A stretch of DNA of 37,033 nucleotides from an uncultured Bacteroidales bacterium (GTDB taxonomy: Bacteria; Bacteroidota; Bacteroidia; Bacteroidales; P3): assembly GCA_946613135.1 (NCBI GenBank), contig CAMOFI010000008.1, forward strand, positions 1 through 37,033, given 5' to 3'. The position numbers were made by a program, and so were the translations under genes. This document shows, one piece after another, positions 27,810-35,290 of the stretch; position 1 is the first letter of the stretch; the number at the start of each line of letters is the position of its first letter. Below the pieces are notes generated by a model. The model searched no databases, had not been told where the DNA came from, and worked only from the letters and a program-made list of their open reading frames with translations.

Positions 27810-27914
27810 TCGTCTTTTTCGTTTATCTAACGACACAAAAGCAAAAATATTGTAACTACATTAAAAATTCAGGACCTACAAAAAAGGGAAAACCTACTTT
27901 AAACCATAATTTAG

Positions 27915-29619: not shown

Positions 29620-31983
29620 ATGTTGACTCTGGAGCCCAGCGTCAGTTTCTGGGATTGCGGAGAATTCATTGCCACATCCCACAAGCTGATGGTAGGCCAT
29701 CCGCCTGGAGCTCCGCTGTACCAACTCCTTGCCCACTGCTTCACACTCCTTGCCATGGGCGACGCCGGGCGCATAGCGTGGTGGAGCAATGCCTTGAGCG
29801 CCGTAGCAGGAGGCTTTACTGCCATGTTTCTTTTTTGGACCATCGGACGCCTCGTCGCGCTCCTGAACCCCAGATACACAGCCGACACACCGCCGATCCT
29901 TCCATCGCTCATAGGCTCGACCTGCTACCTTTTTTGCGACACGGCATGGTTTTCGGCCGTGGAGAGCGAAGTCTACAGCCTATCGATGCTTTTCTCCTCT
30001 GCAATACTCTGGACCATGGTACGCTGGGCCACGTCGCCCACTCCGTTCCAGTCCCAACGCTGGCTATTCCTTACGGTATTTCTTGTCTGCCTTTCGACGG
30101 GAGTACACCTCCTTTCGCTCCTTACCCTCCCTGCAATACTCCTCATCTACATCTTCCGTAGGCATCGGACGAGCGCGTACGCTTTTCCGCTAAGGCAACT
30201 GCCTATCCTGTTCATCCTCGTCATCGTAGGGCTATCCCCCTGGCTCATTATACCCCTGCGTGCTGCCGCCGATCCTCCAATCAACAGCGGCGACCCATCG
30301 TCGGCTTCCGCATTCCACCAATACGTATCGCGTGCCCAGTACGAGCATGCGCCCATCGTCTATGGTCGCTGCTTCAATTCGCCCATAGTAGCCTATACCG
30401 ACGGCAAACCCGTCTATGCCAAAGAGATGGACATGATCTTTCCGCGAATGTGGAAACAGCACCCACATGCCGAGCAATACTATACCGACTGGTGCGGACG
30501 ACATGGCAAGAACATCACAATAGGAGGTCACCAATACTACAAACCATCCTTTGTAGACAACCTCGTGATCTTTTTCGGATACCAGCTTGGATACATGAAT
30601 CTGCGATACCTGATGTGGAACTTTAGCGGACGCTACGACGACAATCAAGGTTTCGGCAACCTGCAGAGAGGGCAGTTCATCAGTGGCATACCGTTTTTAG
30701 ACCGCCTTCTTGTGGGCACTGGCAAAGGGATGCCAGAATCTCTTGCAAACAAGGGACACAACCGCTACTTCCTTCTACCCTTTGCATTGGGGCTTGTAGG
30801 GTTCTTCAGTTCAAGGAAAGAGAGACCCCTCTTCTGGATGCTCCTCGCTCTCTTTATAACTTCCAGCCTACTCCTCACAGTATACCTCAACCACCCCGTC
30901 TACGAACCACGCGAACGCGACTACGCCTATATCCTGTCTTTCTACACCTTTGCCATCTATATCGGACTCGGGACCGACAAAGCTTCGCATTGGTTTGTTT
31001 CTTCGCGTCGGCGCCGTCAAGGTGCCGTCAAGAGCCCACTGAGACTGGTCCTGCTTGCCGTTCCCCTCCTGATGGCGTGCCAGAACTGGGACGACCACGA
31101 CCGGAGCTGCCGCTATATAGCCCGTGACTCTGCCGCCAACCTCCTCCAGTCGTGCAGCAAGGGAGCAATCCTTTTCACCCTTGGCGACAACGACACCTTC
31201 CCGCTCTGGTATATGCAGCATGTGGAGGAGTTCCGCACCGACGTACAAGTGATCAACATATCGCTCCTTGCCGACGACAGCTATCTGCGTACCACTCTCC
31301 GCAAGTTGCAGGACACCTCACTCGCCGCAGACGACCTTGTCAACTATGGACCATACCAGCGAATGATGAGCATCATTCGCAGCAGTGTCCGTCCGGTACA
31401 TTTCAGCCATTATGCCAAGGGAGACCCGCGCATCAACTTCCCCAACAGACTCAAACTCTGCGGCATTTCCTATCTGCTTTCCGACAGCGCCAGCGTGGAC
31501 ACCGTGGACATAGGGCGCTGCCAGCGGCTCTTTGCTCAAGAGCTGCAGTGGCATCCTGTGGACAAAGTATATATCGACGAAATCTCGAACCGTTTTTTAC
31601 TCCAGTATTGGAAAGACGCACTGCTTACAGTCGAAAACCTTGCCCACCATGGAAGGGCAAGCGAGGGTTTGGCACTCTTAGACCACATCCAGCAAAAGGT
31701 ACCCCTGAGCGTGCTGAAGAATCCGGAGACAGAATATCGTGCGCTCAACGCCTACAGCATTTGCGGCGACAGGCACACAGCCTCCATGCTTGCCAAGCGA
31801 CTTGAAAAGACGCTCCGAGAGCAGATGGAGTACTACGGCAGCATGCCTGGCTCTATGCTGCAATATATCGAATACACCATCGACCCGCTGCTGAAGCTGG
31901 AAAAACAGCTTGACAGCACCATTGCAGAGATTGAGACATATAATCGCCACACTCCAACACATCACACGGCAACATCCCTATAA
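29620..31983 (+). CDS. DUF2723 GT-C-type membrane protein (protein O-mannosyltransferase-like); N-terminal start unclear
   Basis: 787 residues from the first ATG. The family core is present: LTLEPSVSFWDCGEFIATSH with HKLMVGHPPGAPLYQLLAH, then many membrane segments (about ten) and the central NHPVYEPRERDYAY block typical of DUF2723. The C-terminal ~100 residues are a soluble helical region. It is related to GT-C glycosyltransferases and predicted to transfer sugar from a lipid carrier; substrate unknown. The chosen ATG lies inside the usual N-terminal membrane helix. The upstream 90 bp encode SKKYTLTGWLVAILGTAVYM in the same frame, fitting that helix, but contain no ATG, GTG or TTG before the lptE stop. 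The true start is therefore uncertain. Confidence 0.8.
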   Translation: MLTLEPSVSFWDCGEFIATSHKLMVGHPPGAPLYQLLAHCFTLLAMGDAGRIAWWSNALSAVAGGFTAMFLFWTIGRLVALLNPRYTADTPPILPSLIGSTCYLFCDTAWFSAVESEVYSLSMLFSSAILWTMVRWATSPTPFQSQRWLFLTVFLVCLSTGVHLLSLLTLPAILLIYIFRRHRTSAYAFPLRQLPILFILVIVGLSPWLIIPLRAAADPPINSGDPSSASAFHQYVSRAQYEHAPIVYGRCFNSPIVAYTDGKPVYAKEMDMIFPRMWKQHPHAEQYYTDWCGRHGKNITIGGHQYYKPSFVDNLVIFFGYQLGYMNLRYLMWNFSGRYDDNQGFGNLQRGQFISGIPFLDRLLVGTGKGMPESLANKGHNRYFLLPFALGLVGFFSSRKERPLFWMLLALFITSSLLLTVYLNHPVYEPRERDYAYILSFYTFAIYIGLGTDKASHWFVSSRRRRQGAVKSPLRLVLLAVPLLMACQNWDDHDRSCRYIARDSAANLLQSCSKGAILFTLGDNDTFPLWYMQHVEEFRTDVQVINISLLADDSYLRTTLRKLQDTSLAADDLVNYGPYQRMMSIIRSSVRPVHFSHYAKGDPRINFPNRLKLCGISYLLSDSASVDTVDIGRCQRLFAQELQWHPVDKVYIDEISNRFLLQYWKDALLTVENLAHHGRASEGLALLDHIQQKVPLSVLKNPETEYRALNAYSICGDRHTASMLAKRLEKTLREQMEYYGSMPGSMLQYIEYTIDPLLKLEKQLDSTIAEIETYNRHTPTHHTATSL

Positions 31984-32083
31984 TGAGAATTTTAATGCCA
32001 CGCATAAACCTTTATGATGTGACGATAGAGTAGAGACTCGAAATCATTGAGCAAATCAGAAAGAATATATGAAAATTTTCTTG

Positions 32084-32126
32084 TACCTTTGTAACTTATT
32101 ACAAAAGAGGAACTCTTTTGTAATAA
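32084..32126 (+). promoter_or_regulatory. mrdA promoter within overlapping palindromes
   Basis: The -7 box TACCTTTG (32084-32091) is followed by TTTGTAA-CTTA-TTACAAA (32088-32105), whose left arm shares its TTTG with the box. A perfect 14-bp inverted repeat follows: TTATTACAAAAGAG (32096-32109), loop GAA, CTCTTTTGTAATAA (32113-32126). The TTACAAA arm can pair either with the left or with the right TTTGTAA. This could be a repressor operator, a 5'-end RNA hairpin, or both. mrdA starts 64 bp later. Confidence 0.6.
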
Positions 32127-32189
32127 ACTATTTTTATGTTTTTTAACTCTATATAAAAGAATCGAAATCTATCGAAAAACATCGAACAA

Positions 32190-34043
32190 GTGAGCCGCAA
32201 CCAATACCAAGAGCGCAGCAACGTGATACGCATCATCTTCATTACGATAGGGGCAATCTTTATCGTGAGGCTTGCTTTTTTGCAACTTTTCGACAACACC
32301 TACCGCGATCTGGCCGACCAACAGGCACTGCGCAACGTGACGCAGTATGCCGCACGCGGACTGATATACGACCGAAACGGCAAGCTGCTTGTCTACAACG
32401 AGGCCGTATACGACCTGATGGTTATCCCCAAAATGACGAAGCACCTGGACACAGCTTATTTCTGCAAGGTGATTGGGATAAGTCGGGAGGACTTCGACGC
32501 CCGCATGAAAAAGGCTTGCCGCTACTCAACCTACTCTCCTTCGATATTCATGAAGCAGGTGTCGAAAGAGGAATACGGCTCGTGGCAGAGCCATCTATAC
32601 AAATTCCACGGTTTCTATGTGCAGAAACGCACACTGCGTGTATACGACAAGCCGATAGCTGCCCACGTGCTCGGATATGTGGGCGAAGTTGACCAGAGCG
32701 ATATCGACAACGACCACTACTACAAGCAGGGTGACTATATAGGCAAAAGCGGACTGGAAAAAAGCTATGAGGGAGTGCTGCGCGGTGTGAAAGGCAAACG
32801 GGTCATGCATGTTGATGTGCACAACCGGGAAATAGGACCTTACAAGAACGGCGCGGAGGACACTATGGCTATTGAGGGGGGCAACCTGTACACTACGCTC
32901 GATGCAGACCTGCAGGAATATGCCGAGGGACTTATGGCAAACAAGCGCGGATGTATTGTGGCGATAGAGCCTTCCACAGGGGAGGTACTGGCTCTGCTTT
33001 CGGCGCCTGGCTATGACCCCAACCTGCTTGTGGGCAGGGCGCGAGGCGAAAACTATCTGATGCTGCAGAGGGACATTGCCAAGCCCCTCTTCAACAGGGC
33101 CCTTCAGGCTCAGTATCCTCCAGGATCGATCTTCAAGGTGGCGCAGGCTATGACAGCTCTGGATTTGGGCGTCATATCGCCATCGACGGGTTTTCCGTGC
33201 GACAAGTCGCTGGTGGGATGCCACAACCACCCCTCGGCTCGAACGGTGCAGGAGGCTATAAAGATGTCGTGCAACCCATACTTTTACTTTGTCTACCGAC
33301 GTATAATACAGCAAGGCAAATATAGCAACATCTACCGCGACAGCCCTTACGGTCTGACAGTGTGGCACAACTATATGGAGCGCTTCGGATTCGGCACCAG
33401 AATCGGCATCGACCTGCCGAGCGTGAAGAGCGGCAACATTCCGGACACGAATTACTACAACCGCTGGTACGGTGCCGGCAAATGGGCTTTCTCTACGATA
33501 TACTCGAACAGTATAGGGCAAGGCGAAGTGGAGGTAGTGCCGCTGCAGATGGCCAACCTGGCCTGCATAGTGGCGAACAGAGGCTACTGGATCACACCGC
33601 ACCTGGTACGCTACTACGGGCCAGACTCGACACGCAACGAGGAGTTCTACACACGCCACGAGACAGGGATCGACCGCCGGTACTTCGAAATTGCGGCAGC
33701 AGGAATGTATGATGTTGTGCACACTGCAGGAGGCACAGCACGACGGGCCAACATTGCAGACATTGACGTGTGTGGCAAAACTGGCACAGCGCAGAATATC
33801 GGCTACGACCACTCTGTTTTTATCTGTTTTGCTCCGAAGGAGAACCCCAAAATAGCTGTAGCCGTGTATGTGGAGAACGCTCCGGGTGGCGGCGGTTTCT
33901 GGGCTGCTCCGATAGCGAGCCTTGTGGTGGAGAAATACATTCGCGGAAACGTGACACGCACGGAACTGGAGAAATACTATCGCGAGGCTGCTCCTTGCCA
34001 GAAGCTGCCTCTTACCCGCATATCGAAAAAGAAAAGGAAATGA
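32190..34043 (+). CDS. mrdA: Penicillin-binding protein 2 (peptidoglycan transpeptidase of the elongasome)
   Basis: 617 residues from a GTG start (MSRNQYQERSNVIRII). One N-terminal membrane segment (~11-33, VIRIIFITIGAIFIVRLAFL) is followed by the dimerisation/pedestal domain and the transpeptidase. Active-site motifs are complete: SIFK with Ser313, SCN at 360-362 and KTG at 530-532 (CGKTGTAQN). The C-terminus is basic. PBP2 crosslinks lateral-wall peptidoglycan with RodA. Upstream there is no mreB/C/D as is common in this group; the DUF2723 gene is there instead. The stop overlaps rodA (ATGA), so translation is coupled. It has its own promoter region. Confidence 0.93.
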   Translation: MSRNQYQERSNVIRIIFITIGAIFIVRLAFLQLFDNTYRDLADQQALRNVTQYAARGLIYDRNGKLLVYNEAVYDLMVIPKMTKHLDTAYFCKVIGISREDFDARMKKACRYSTYSPSIFMKQVSKEEYGSWQSHLYKFHGFYVQKRTLRVYDKPIAAHVLGYVGEVDQSDIDNDHYYKQGDYIGKSGLEKSYEGVLRGVKGKRVMHVDVHNREIGPYKNGAEDTMAIEGGNLYTTLDADLQEYAEGLMANKRGCIVAIEPSTGEVLALLSAPGYDPNLLVGRARGENYLMLQRDIAKPLFNRALQAQYPPGSIFKVAQAMTALDLGVISPSTGFPCDKSLVGCHNHPSARTVQEAIKMSCNPYFYFVYRRIIQQGKYSNIYRDSPYGLTVWHNYMERFGFGTRIGIDLPSVKSGNIPDTNYYNRWYGAGKWAFSTIYSNSIGQGEVEVVPLQMANLACIVANRGYWITPHLVRYYGPDSTRNEEFYTRHETGIDRRYFEIAAAGMYDVVHTAGGTARRANIADIDVCGKTGTAQNIGYDHSVFICFAPKENPKIAVAVYVENAPGGGGFWAAPIASLVVEKYIRGNVTRTELEKYYREAAPCQKLPLTRISKKKRK

Positions 34044-35290
34044 TGGAGAACAAAATCGACTGGATATCGCTAACACTATACTTGGCCATACTGTTGTTCG
34101 GTTGGCTGAACATATATGCGGCATGCTATGACGAGAGTCATGCTGGAATATTTGATTTTTCTACCAAGCACGGCAAGCAGCTTATATGGATAGGCGTGTC
34201 GTTGTTTTTTGCTCTTGTGATCACACTTACCGACCCGAAGATTTTTTCGCAGACTGCTTATTTCATCTACCTCGGCGCACTGCTGCTTTTGGTGGTCACC
34301 CTCTTTGTGGCCAACGTGACGAAAGGCGGCCAGTCGTGGATAGACTTCGGCTCTTTTAAGCTGCAGCCCTCAGAATTTGCAAAATTCGCCACAGCTCTGG
34401 CTCTTGCGAAATACATGAGTTCGCTCGACTTGGACTATAAGCTGGTCCGCACTAAGATTGTTTCGTGGGTGATTGTCCTTATTCCGGCTCTGCTGATACT
34501 GCTGCAGCACGACACAGGGTCGGCGATGGTCTTTGCTGGTTTCGTATTGCCGCTCTATCGCGAAGGTCTTTCGCCAAAGATACTCATCTTCGGGCTTATA
34601 GCAATAATTCTTTTCGTCGTGGCTCTGCTCGTAAACCGTTTCATCATTATAGGAATGCTTGCTCTTATAGCACTTTTCTACCTTTTTGTATGGCTCAACA
34701 AACGCACTCGCAAGCACTACATGTGGGCTACGGTGGTATTTCTTGCCTGCTCGCTCTTCACTTTGTCGGTCGACTTCGCGTTTGAACATATCCTGGAACC
34801 TCACCAGCGCGACCGTATCTATGTGCTGCTTGGCAAGACGGACGATACTCGCGGAACAGGATATAACGTGTACCAGTCGAAAATAGCCATCGGGTCGGGT
34901 GGCGTAATTGGGAAGGGATTCCTGAACGGCACCATAACAAAAGCCGACTTTGTGCCCGAACAGGAGACCGACTTCATTTTCTGCACGGTAGGCGAGGAAT
35001 GGGGCTTTGTCGGCGCCACGGCGGTAACGCTGCTCTATGTATGCCTGCTTCTGAGGCTGGTAACACTTGCGGAGCGACAGTATTCGCGATTTTCGCGTTT
35101 CTACGGCTATTCCGTCGCCAGCATACTTTTTGTGCATGTATTCATCAACATCGGCATGGTGCTGGGGTTGCTGCCTGTGATAGGTATTCCGCTACCGTTT
35201 TTCAGCTACGGAGGTTCGTCGCTCATTGCTTTCACCATACTGCTGTTCATATTCCTGCGACAGGATCAGGAACGCTCGAAACCAGTTTGA
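34040..35290 (+). CDS. rodA: Rod-shape SEDS glycosyltransferase RodA
   Basis: The track ORF begins at 33770 inside mrdA; the real start is the ATG at 34040 (MMENKIDWIS), overlapping the mrdA stop as ATGA, or the adjacent ATG at 34043. The 416-residue protein has about ten membrane helices and SEDS signatures: GGQSWIDFGSFKLQPSEFAK, the DTRGTGYNVYQSKIAIGSGG loop, FVPEQETDFIFCTVGEEWGF and PFFSYGGSSL near the C-terminus. RodA polymerises glycan strands with PBP2 during cell elongation. It is followed by a 106-bp gap before clpX, where only a 21-codon ORF (35318-35383) of doubtful value is found. Confidence 0.93.
   Translation: MMENKIDWISLTLYLAILLFGWLNIYAACYDESHAGIFDFSTKHGKQLIWIGVSLFFALVITLTDPKIFSQTAYFIYLGALLLLVVTLFVANVTKGGQSWIDFGSFKLQPSEFAKFATALALAKYMSSLDLDYKLVRTKIVSWVIVLIPALLILLQHDTGSAMVFAGFVLPLYREGLSPKILIFGLIAIILFVVALLVNRFIIIGMLALIALFYLFVWLNKRTRKHYMWATVVFLACSLFTLSVDFAFEHILEPHQRDRIYVLLGKTDDTRGTGYNVYQSKIAIGSGGVIGKGFLNGTITKADFVPEQETDFIFCTVGEEWGFVGATAVTLLYVCLLLRLVTLAERQYSRFSRFYGYSVASILFVHVFINIGMVLGLLPVIGIPLPFFSYGGSSLIAFTILLFIFLRQDQERSKPV

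Follow-up and report, generated by a model that had tools for sequence, protein, structure and literature searches.

Introduction

In Escherichia coli, stem-loops located at the 5' end of a transcript stabilise the mRNA, and RppH and RNase E act from this end (review PMC3997798 and works cited there). Comparatively little is known about the control of mRNA life and of PBP2-RodA dosage in Bacteroidota. For B. thetaiotaomicron, A or G is favoured as the first transcribed base, and leaders have a median length of 32 nt, with 13.5% exceeding 100 nt (PMC7366714). The sigma-A promoters of the phylum carry a -7 box with the consensus TAnnTTTG (PMC7366714), which occupies positions -12 to -5 in F. psychrophilum (PMC9723704). 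A second element, the -33 TTTG, is weakly conserved and was not found in some Bacteroidota (PMC7366714). A mrdA leader comparable to the one described below was absent from Rfam and from the literature searched.

Results and Discussion

The source genome is a 1.74-Mb Bacteroidales metagenome-assembled genome (MAG) with a completeness of 75%, whose nearest named relatives are MAGs from the gut or rumen of sheep, goat, yak and deer. The window, i.e. the whole 37,033-nt stretch of DNA that was analysed, is contig C8 of this genome. The genes of interest follow the order TMEM260-like transferase, mrdA, rodA, clpX and PTPS-family gene, and the gap upstream of mrdA comprises 206 bp of intergenic DNA.

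29620-31983: TMEM260-like transferase gene, upstream of mrdA
32190-34043, + strand: mrdA (PBP2), Pfam PF03717 (PBP_dimer) and PF00905 (Transpeptidase), GTG start
34037-35290, + strand: rodA, Pfam PF01098 (FTSW_RODA_SPOVE), overlapping the end of mrdA

Both genes, mrdA and rodA, are probably carried on one transcript. Directly 5' of the mrdA start codon three copies of ATCGAA are found with an exact spacing of 10 nt (32161-32186, ATCGAAatctATCGAAaaacATCGAA); a single GTCGAA stands in their place in the relatives L017, L019 and L132.

Within the intergenic region a putative promoter, a dyad and a hairpin overlap.

32084-32091, + strand: -7 box TACCTTTG of a predicted Bacteroidota sigma-A promoter for mrdA (consensus TAnnTTTG, PMC7366714)
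32088-32105, no strand assigned: dyad TTTGTAACTTATTACAAA, exact match, perfect 7-bp arms TTTGTAA and TTACAAA around the 4-nt spacer CTTA
32096, + strand: predicted +1, derived from the spacing to the -7 box; purine alternative A 32098
32096-32109, + strand: 5' arm of the hairpin, TTATTACAAAAGAG, from the repeat search (14 bp, 100%)
32110-32112, + strand: GAA loop, from the repeat search
32113-32126, + strand: 3' arm of the hairpin, CTCTTTTGTAATAA, from the repeat search

The first-pass annotation had stated that the -7 box shares bases with a TTTGTAA-N4-TTACAAA repeat and that the right arm of this repeat also belongs to a perfect 14-bp hairpin with a GAA loop. Both statements were confirmed by exact matches, the former at 32084-32091 and 32088-32105, the latter as TTATTACAAAAGAG-GAA-CTCTTTTGTAATAA at 32096-32126. 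From the position of the box, mrdA would be transcribed from a sigma-A promoter with a start at the first base of the hairpin, the predicted +1 at 32096 being its first paired base. If transcription began at the purine A 32098 instead, a blunt hairpin of 12 bp would remain. A -33 TTTG element was not found on the + strand around 32050-32070.

For the hairpin alone a folding energy of -13.3 kcal/mol was calculated (z -7.35). When the 206-bp gap was shuffled 2000 times with its dinucleotide composition kept, the best perfect stem measured 11 bp; the 14 bp observed were reached in none of the shuffles. A survey of a 437-kb sample of this genome covered 79 intergenic TAnnTTTG sites, among which the hairpin was the longest by 4 bp. 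At the other 78 sites the stems within the 48 nt that follow reach 10 bp at most, and the sole 10-bp stem among them looks terminator-like. The palindrome is thus real, and the hairpin lies far beyond chance. Since long perfect inverted repeats are also present elsewhere in the genome, it is notable for its place and not for its existence.

From the predicted +1 the transcript would open with the following leader.

32096-32189, + strand: mrdA 5' leader, 94 nt, predicted +1 to GTG start
32132-32158, + strand: weak second hairpin of 8 bp (arms 32132-32139 and 32151-32158), present in the minimum-energy fold and not in the centroid; low confidence

Fold z-scores of about -4.3 to -4.5 were obtained for this leader. 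Its layout is similar to that of the leaders L018 and L129 and consists of a 5' hairpin, a short linker, a weaker second hairpin and a stretch left open up to the start codon. In the relative closest to this species, with 88% identity in mrdA, a hairpin of 6-7 bp is present at the same offset; taken alone it would attract no notice, and the leader z of -1.1 is unremarkable. Rfam gave no hits in the window, the best match below threshold scoring 21.4 bits where 60.7 are required. Short ATG frames that might encode a leader peptide (MFFNSI*, from 32136-32138) were noted by eye; the few relatives inspected did not share them.

The near-clade set comprised about 20 mrdA orthologs with a protein identity of 77% or more, all from MAGs. 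In most of them a TAnnTTTG-type box precedes the leader and is followed by about 93-127 nt to mrdA (43 nt in L072); the mrdA leaders of more distant genus members are short. The mean fold z of 16 near-clade leaders, which are related to each other, was -2.24 compared to -0.29 (sd 1.27) for 78 control leaders, all taken from the 437-kb sample of this one genome. Seven leaders (L128, L131, L130, L133, L126, L132 and L019) have in common one long hairpin that takes in the entire leader. Their alignment contains 25 double-change cells with pairing kept, versus 10.9 +- 2.8 in shuffled and 5-10 in slid alignments, and the covariation amounts to 0.437 versus 0.286 +- 0.032 in shuffles. The alifold energy is better than that of column shuffles, with a z of -4.8 for all seven sequences and of -5.8 for five. 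A covariance model of the seven leaders, R1, returned eight matches in 119 genus genomes, one per genome, all directly upstream of mrdA by coordinates. Although outside the training set, G134, a sibling of L132, was matched as well (E 2.9e-5; R1 E-values are approximate owing to a shortened model calibration). Outside this group, the pair L018/L129 retains a 5' hairpin of 12 bp with five pairs changed on both sides.

The alignment of all 12 leaders including that of this species gave no consensus structure, and the structure claims are therefore restricted to subgroups. An alifold signal obtained for this species together with L018 and L129 was rejected, as the alignment mispairs the hairpin of this species. 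With filters off, R1 left the mrdA leader of this species unmatched, the best L016 match lying elsewhere (11 bits, E 4.5). Because R1 misses it, homology of the present hairpin to the conserved structures is argued from position and architecture only. Within these bounds the comparison of genomes indicates that a structured leader is conserved upstream of mrdA in the subclade while its sequence is not. The first-pass annotation had regarded absence of the palindrome at the mrdA of relatives, together with a start site located elsewhere, as evidence against its reading. The palindrome sequence is indeed not conserved there; a structured leader in the same place is. A gene-specific, covarying and sequence-free leader at an essential cell wall gene comes as a real surprise and is otherwise ordinary in kind.

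Several lineages show further arrangements. In L124, L136 and L137, mrdA abuts the upstream TMEM260-like gene, with neither promoter nor leader between them; judging from this gene arrangement, the leader is lost where the two genes form an operon. A tRNA-Ala gene, detected with ARAGORN, lies ahead of the mrdA leader in L127, and the same tRNA sequence occurs upstream of mrdA in L070, L089 and L125. In this sister lineage a strong hairpin is again the first element past the tRNA 3' end. Since no clear promoter is apparent between tRNA-Ala and leader, tRNA and mrdA may be transcribed together in these four, the 5' end of the mrdA message then being generated by tRNA 3' processing. The leaders of L132, L019 and L152 contain GGGC-loop-GCCC hairpins whose 3' arm can alternatively pair with a downstream GGG stretch, and these mutually exclusive pairings possibly constitute a switch.

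The feature most widely shared by the leaders is pairing of their first bases. For positions +1 to +5 the median pairing was 0.69 in mrdA leaders and 0.21 in controls (p 7e-5). Against a stricter control, shuffles with these 5 nt fixed, the difference gave p 0.027, and p 0.024 with lineages pooled. The last 15 nt 5' of the start codon are less paired than in shuffles (p 0.013). L132, L135 and L152, with an unpaired 5' end, are exceptions. Overall these differences are of modest significance, and they come from leaders that are related to each other.

The best explanation of these observations, to which we assign a probability of about 0.5, is a hairpin coinciding with the start site, part of a subclade-wide structured leader, which protects the mrdA-rodA message from 5'-end decay. 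A blunt or near-blunt hairpin would form the 5' terminus of the mrdA mRNA, and the A/U-rich sequence between it and the start codon would be largely open. If it forms in vivo, this hairpin would deny a single-stranded 5' end to an RppH-type pyrophosphohydrolase and subsequently to RNase E/G. With 5'-end-dependent decay blocked, the mrdA-rodA message would be longer-lived. An RNase E/G is encoded in this genome; a search with the RNase J profile TIGR00649 gave no convincing member in this incomplete genome, and the decay argument consequently leans on RNase E/G. The hairpin described here would represent, in this species, a structured leader that evolves fast and is present in a subclade of gut and rumen Bacteroidales. 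Conservation would concern the fold and not the sequence, most of all the pairing of the 5' end together with a comparatively open start-codon region. In more general terms, we infer that the structured leader probably protects or tunes the mrdA-rodA message, via stability or translation; the 5' structure could also serve something other than stability. Of the two readings offered in the first-pass annotation, a 5'-terminal RNA hairpin of the mrdA-rodA message gained support from its beginning at the predicted +1, from the covarying leaders of relatives with their base-paired 5' ends and from the RNase E/G of the genome, while the operator reading did not.

The strongest rival is a regulated leader, followed by a terminator or attenuator, an operator and a neutral palindrome. 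In the first case a protein, an sRNA or a signal would tune translation or elongation of mrdA-rodA, for instance by autoregulation or cell-wall feedback, in place of plain stabilisation. The covarying structure is exclusive to mrdA in several relatives, which is in accordance with regulation, as are the competing pairings of GGGC with GCCC or of the latter with downstream GGG in L132, L019 and L152 and the minority status of long leaders in B. thetaiotaomicron (PMC7366714). Riboswitches and protein-bound leaders, however, have a fixed recognition site, and hardly any unpaired sequence is conserved here. Moreover, no Rfam family reaches its threshold, and the structure is rebuilt with other sequences and topologies between lineages. 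Regulation of this kind appears possible and on the whole unlikely.

A lower probability is given to an intrinsic terminator or attenuator, in which the hairpin and a U-rich tract would stop transcription of the TMEM260-like gene or attenuate mrdA. A pattern scan lists the hairpin as terminator-like, a U-rich tract (ACTATTTTTATGTTTTTT) is located 3' of it, and the 112 nt between the end of the upstream gene and the hairpin contain no other terminator-like site. The loose pattern, however, found 12 such sites in the region, a number at the level of shuffles (9.8 +- 3.0), the stem contains only three G-C pairs, and the U run begins about 4 nt past the stem and is interrupted. Full termination at a hairpin within the mrdA transcript would silence an essential gene, and in L123, a relative with the same synteny, no hairpin of this type separates the TMEM260-like gene from mrdA. 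Termination appears doubtful.

The first-pass annotation had also proposed a repressor operator for cell-wall genes. A dimeric repressor bound to the dyad and/or to the 31-bp palindrome would block RNA polymerase, and a perfect 18-bp dyad over the -7 box is an ideal position for it. A TTACAAA follows 0-10 nt 3' of TTTGTAA in 0.5% of shuffles (p about 0.005, post hoc). The dyad is weaker evidence than the hairpin: TTTG belongs to the promoter consensus anyway, and in 9 of the 78 TAnnTTTG sites it is directly followed by TA. The genome search suggested in the first-pass annotation returned a single perfect copy of the dyad, and with up to two mismatches 18 sites versus 13 for the reversed control, i.e. 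barely more and without enrichment. Among 120 genus genomes the palindrome occurred once exactly, in this genome, and the other 119 held one match with three mismatches; upstream of mrdA it was absent from every relative compared. Dyad and palindrome being single-copy across the genome and the 120 genus genomes, an operator regulon was rejected. With one copy, no regulon-like repeats and no conservation at the mrdA of relatives, a cell-wall operator is highly improbable.

The first-pass annotation had further noted that the middle arm has two possible partners, of which it can bind just one at a time. This is correct for the letters of the DNA and does not extend to the RNA: the left arm TTTGTAA is part of the promoter and lies upstream of the predicted +1, and the dyad arms would hence not compete in the transcript. 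Even when the left arm was included as transcript, the hairpin was still the predicted structure. An origin from a mobile element or phage was likewise rejected; viral contigs contained no exact copy of the palindrome, and phage matches were weak and at chance level.

Template-switch events that create palindromes are common in bacteria, and a neutral leftover of such a quasi-palindrome correction in AT-rich intergenic DNA would agree with the perfectly identical arms, the non-conserved sequence and the repetition of TTTTGTAA of the promoter region in the right arm, but it is the least probable of all readings, as the hairpin sits exactly at the predicted +1, structured mrdA leaders recur in relatives and such a hairpin is rare among control leaders.

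A different, putative promoter is found at mrdA in other parts of the genus. In 26 distinct members, among them L074, L079 and L087, mrdA is immediately preceded by the two-part motif CAATA(A/T)-N15-CGTTA, which is also present in the window.

27828-27852, - strand: CAATA(A/T)-N15-CGTTA site

Four relatives carry 93-112 exact copies of the motif each, compared to 3-11 of the reversed control; this genome has 47 copies (reversed control 7). They usually stand 7-50 nt ahead of an ATG. The motif looks like an alternative promoter class (ECF-type, CGT -10) with a large regulon.

Returning to the protective leader, a wider proposal can be put forward tentatively. An undescribed mrdA-specific leader RNA would control the PBP2-RodA (elongasome) operon in a clade of gut and rumen Bacteroidales, with selection for a sequestered 5' end and with sequence and topology being swapped between species; in this species it would have been reduced to a single perfect 14-bp hairpin at the 5' terminus. 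This leader would go with a sigma-A promoter, where many other members of the genus have the ECF-like CAATA-N15-CGTTA promoter and a short leader, transcriptional control maybe being traded for post-transcriptional control. If true, a leader with structure kept would supply a ready set of equivalent 5' elements, made by nature, with which 5'-end-dependent decay could be tested in the phylum. As much of the genus carries the second promoter class at mrdA, a swap of promoter and leader at an essential gene is open to direct testing. The locus also calls for caution, as what resembles an operator palindrome at a promoter may prove to be an RNA hairpin.

Comparison with Known Systems

The mrdA promoter shares with other Bacteroidota sigma-A (sigma-ABfr) promoters the TAnnTTTG box (TACCTTTG), an AT-rich upstream region and the position relative to the leader. 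It differs in having no recognisable -33 TTTG and in the TAA after the box, where CA is commoner.

Similar to intrinsic terminators and attenuators, the mrdA hairpin has a perfect stem with a short loop and a U-rich stretch behind it. In contrast to these, its stem is AT-rich, its U tract is displaced and interrupted, and it is located inside the predicted transcript of an essential gene.

With the riboswitches and ribosomal-protein leaders collected in Rfam the mrdA leaders share a gene-specific, covarying 5' structure of one operon. They differ from them in having neither a conserved loop or ligand-pocket sequence nor a match in Rfam, and in showing several unrelated topologies in neighbouring lineages.

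The closest likeness of the hairpin is to the stabilising E. coli ompA and papA stem-loops (Emory, Bouvet and Belasco, as cited in PMC3997798). In both cases a hairpin is located at the 5' end or a few nt from it, here at a predicted one, no sequence is fixed and the start-codon region is open; an enzyme of the 5'-end-sensing RNase E/G family is also encoded in the present genome. Conservation of structure and not of sequence, as in the ompA/papA type, was found in the relatives; the hairpin of this species lies outside those alignments. The mrdA leader differs from ompA and papA in phylum and gene, in a stabilisation that is predicted, and in a very fast structural evolution. In addition, Bacteroidota leaders are, unlike those of ompA and papA, devoid of Shine-Dalgarno sequences.
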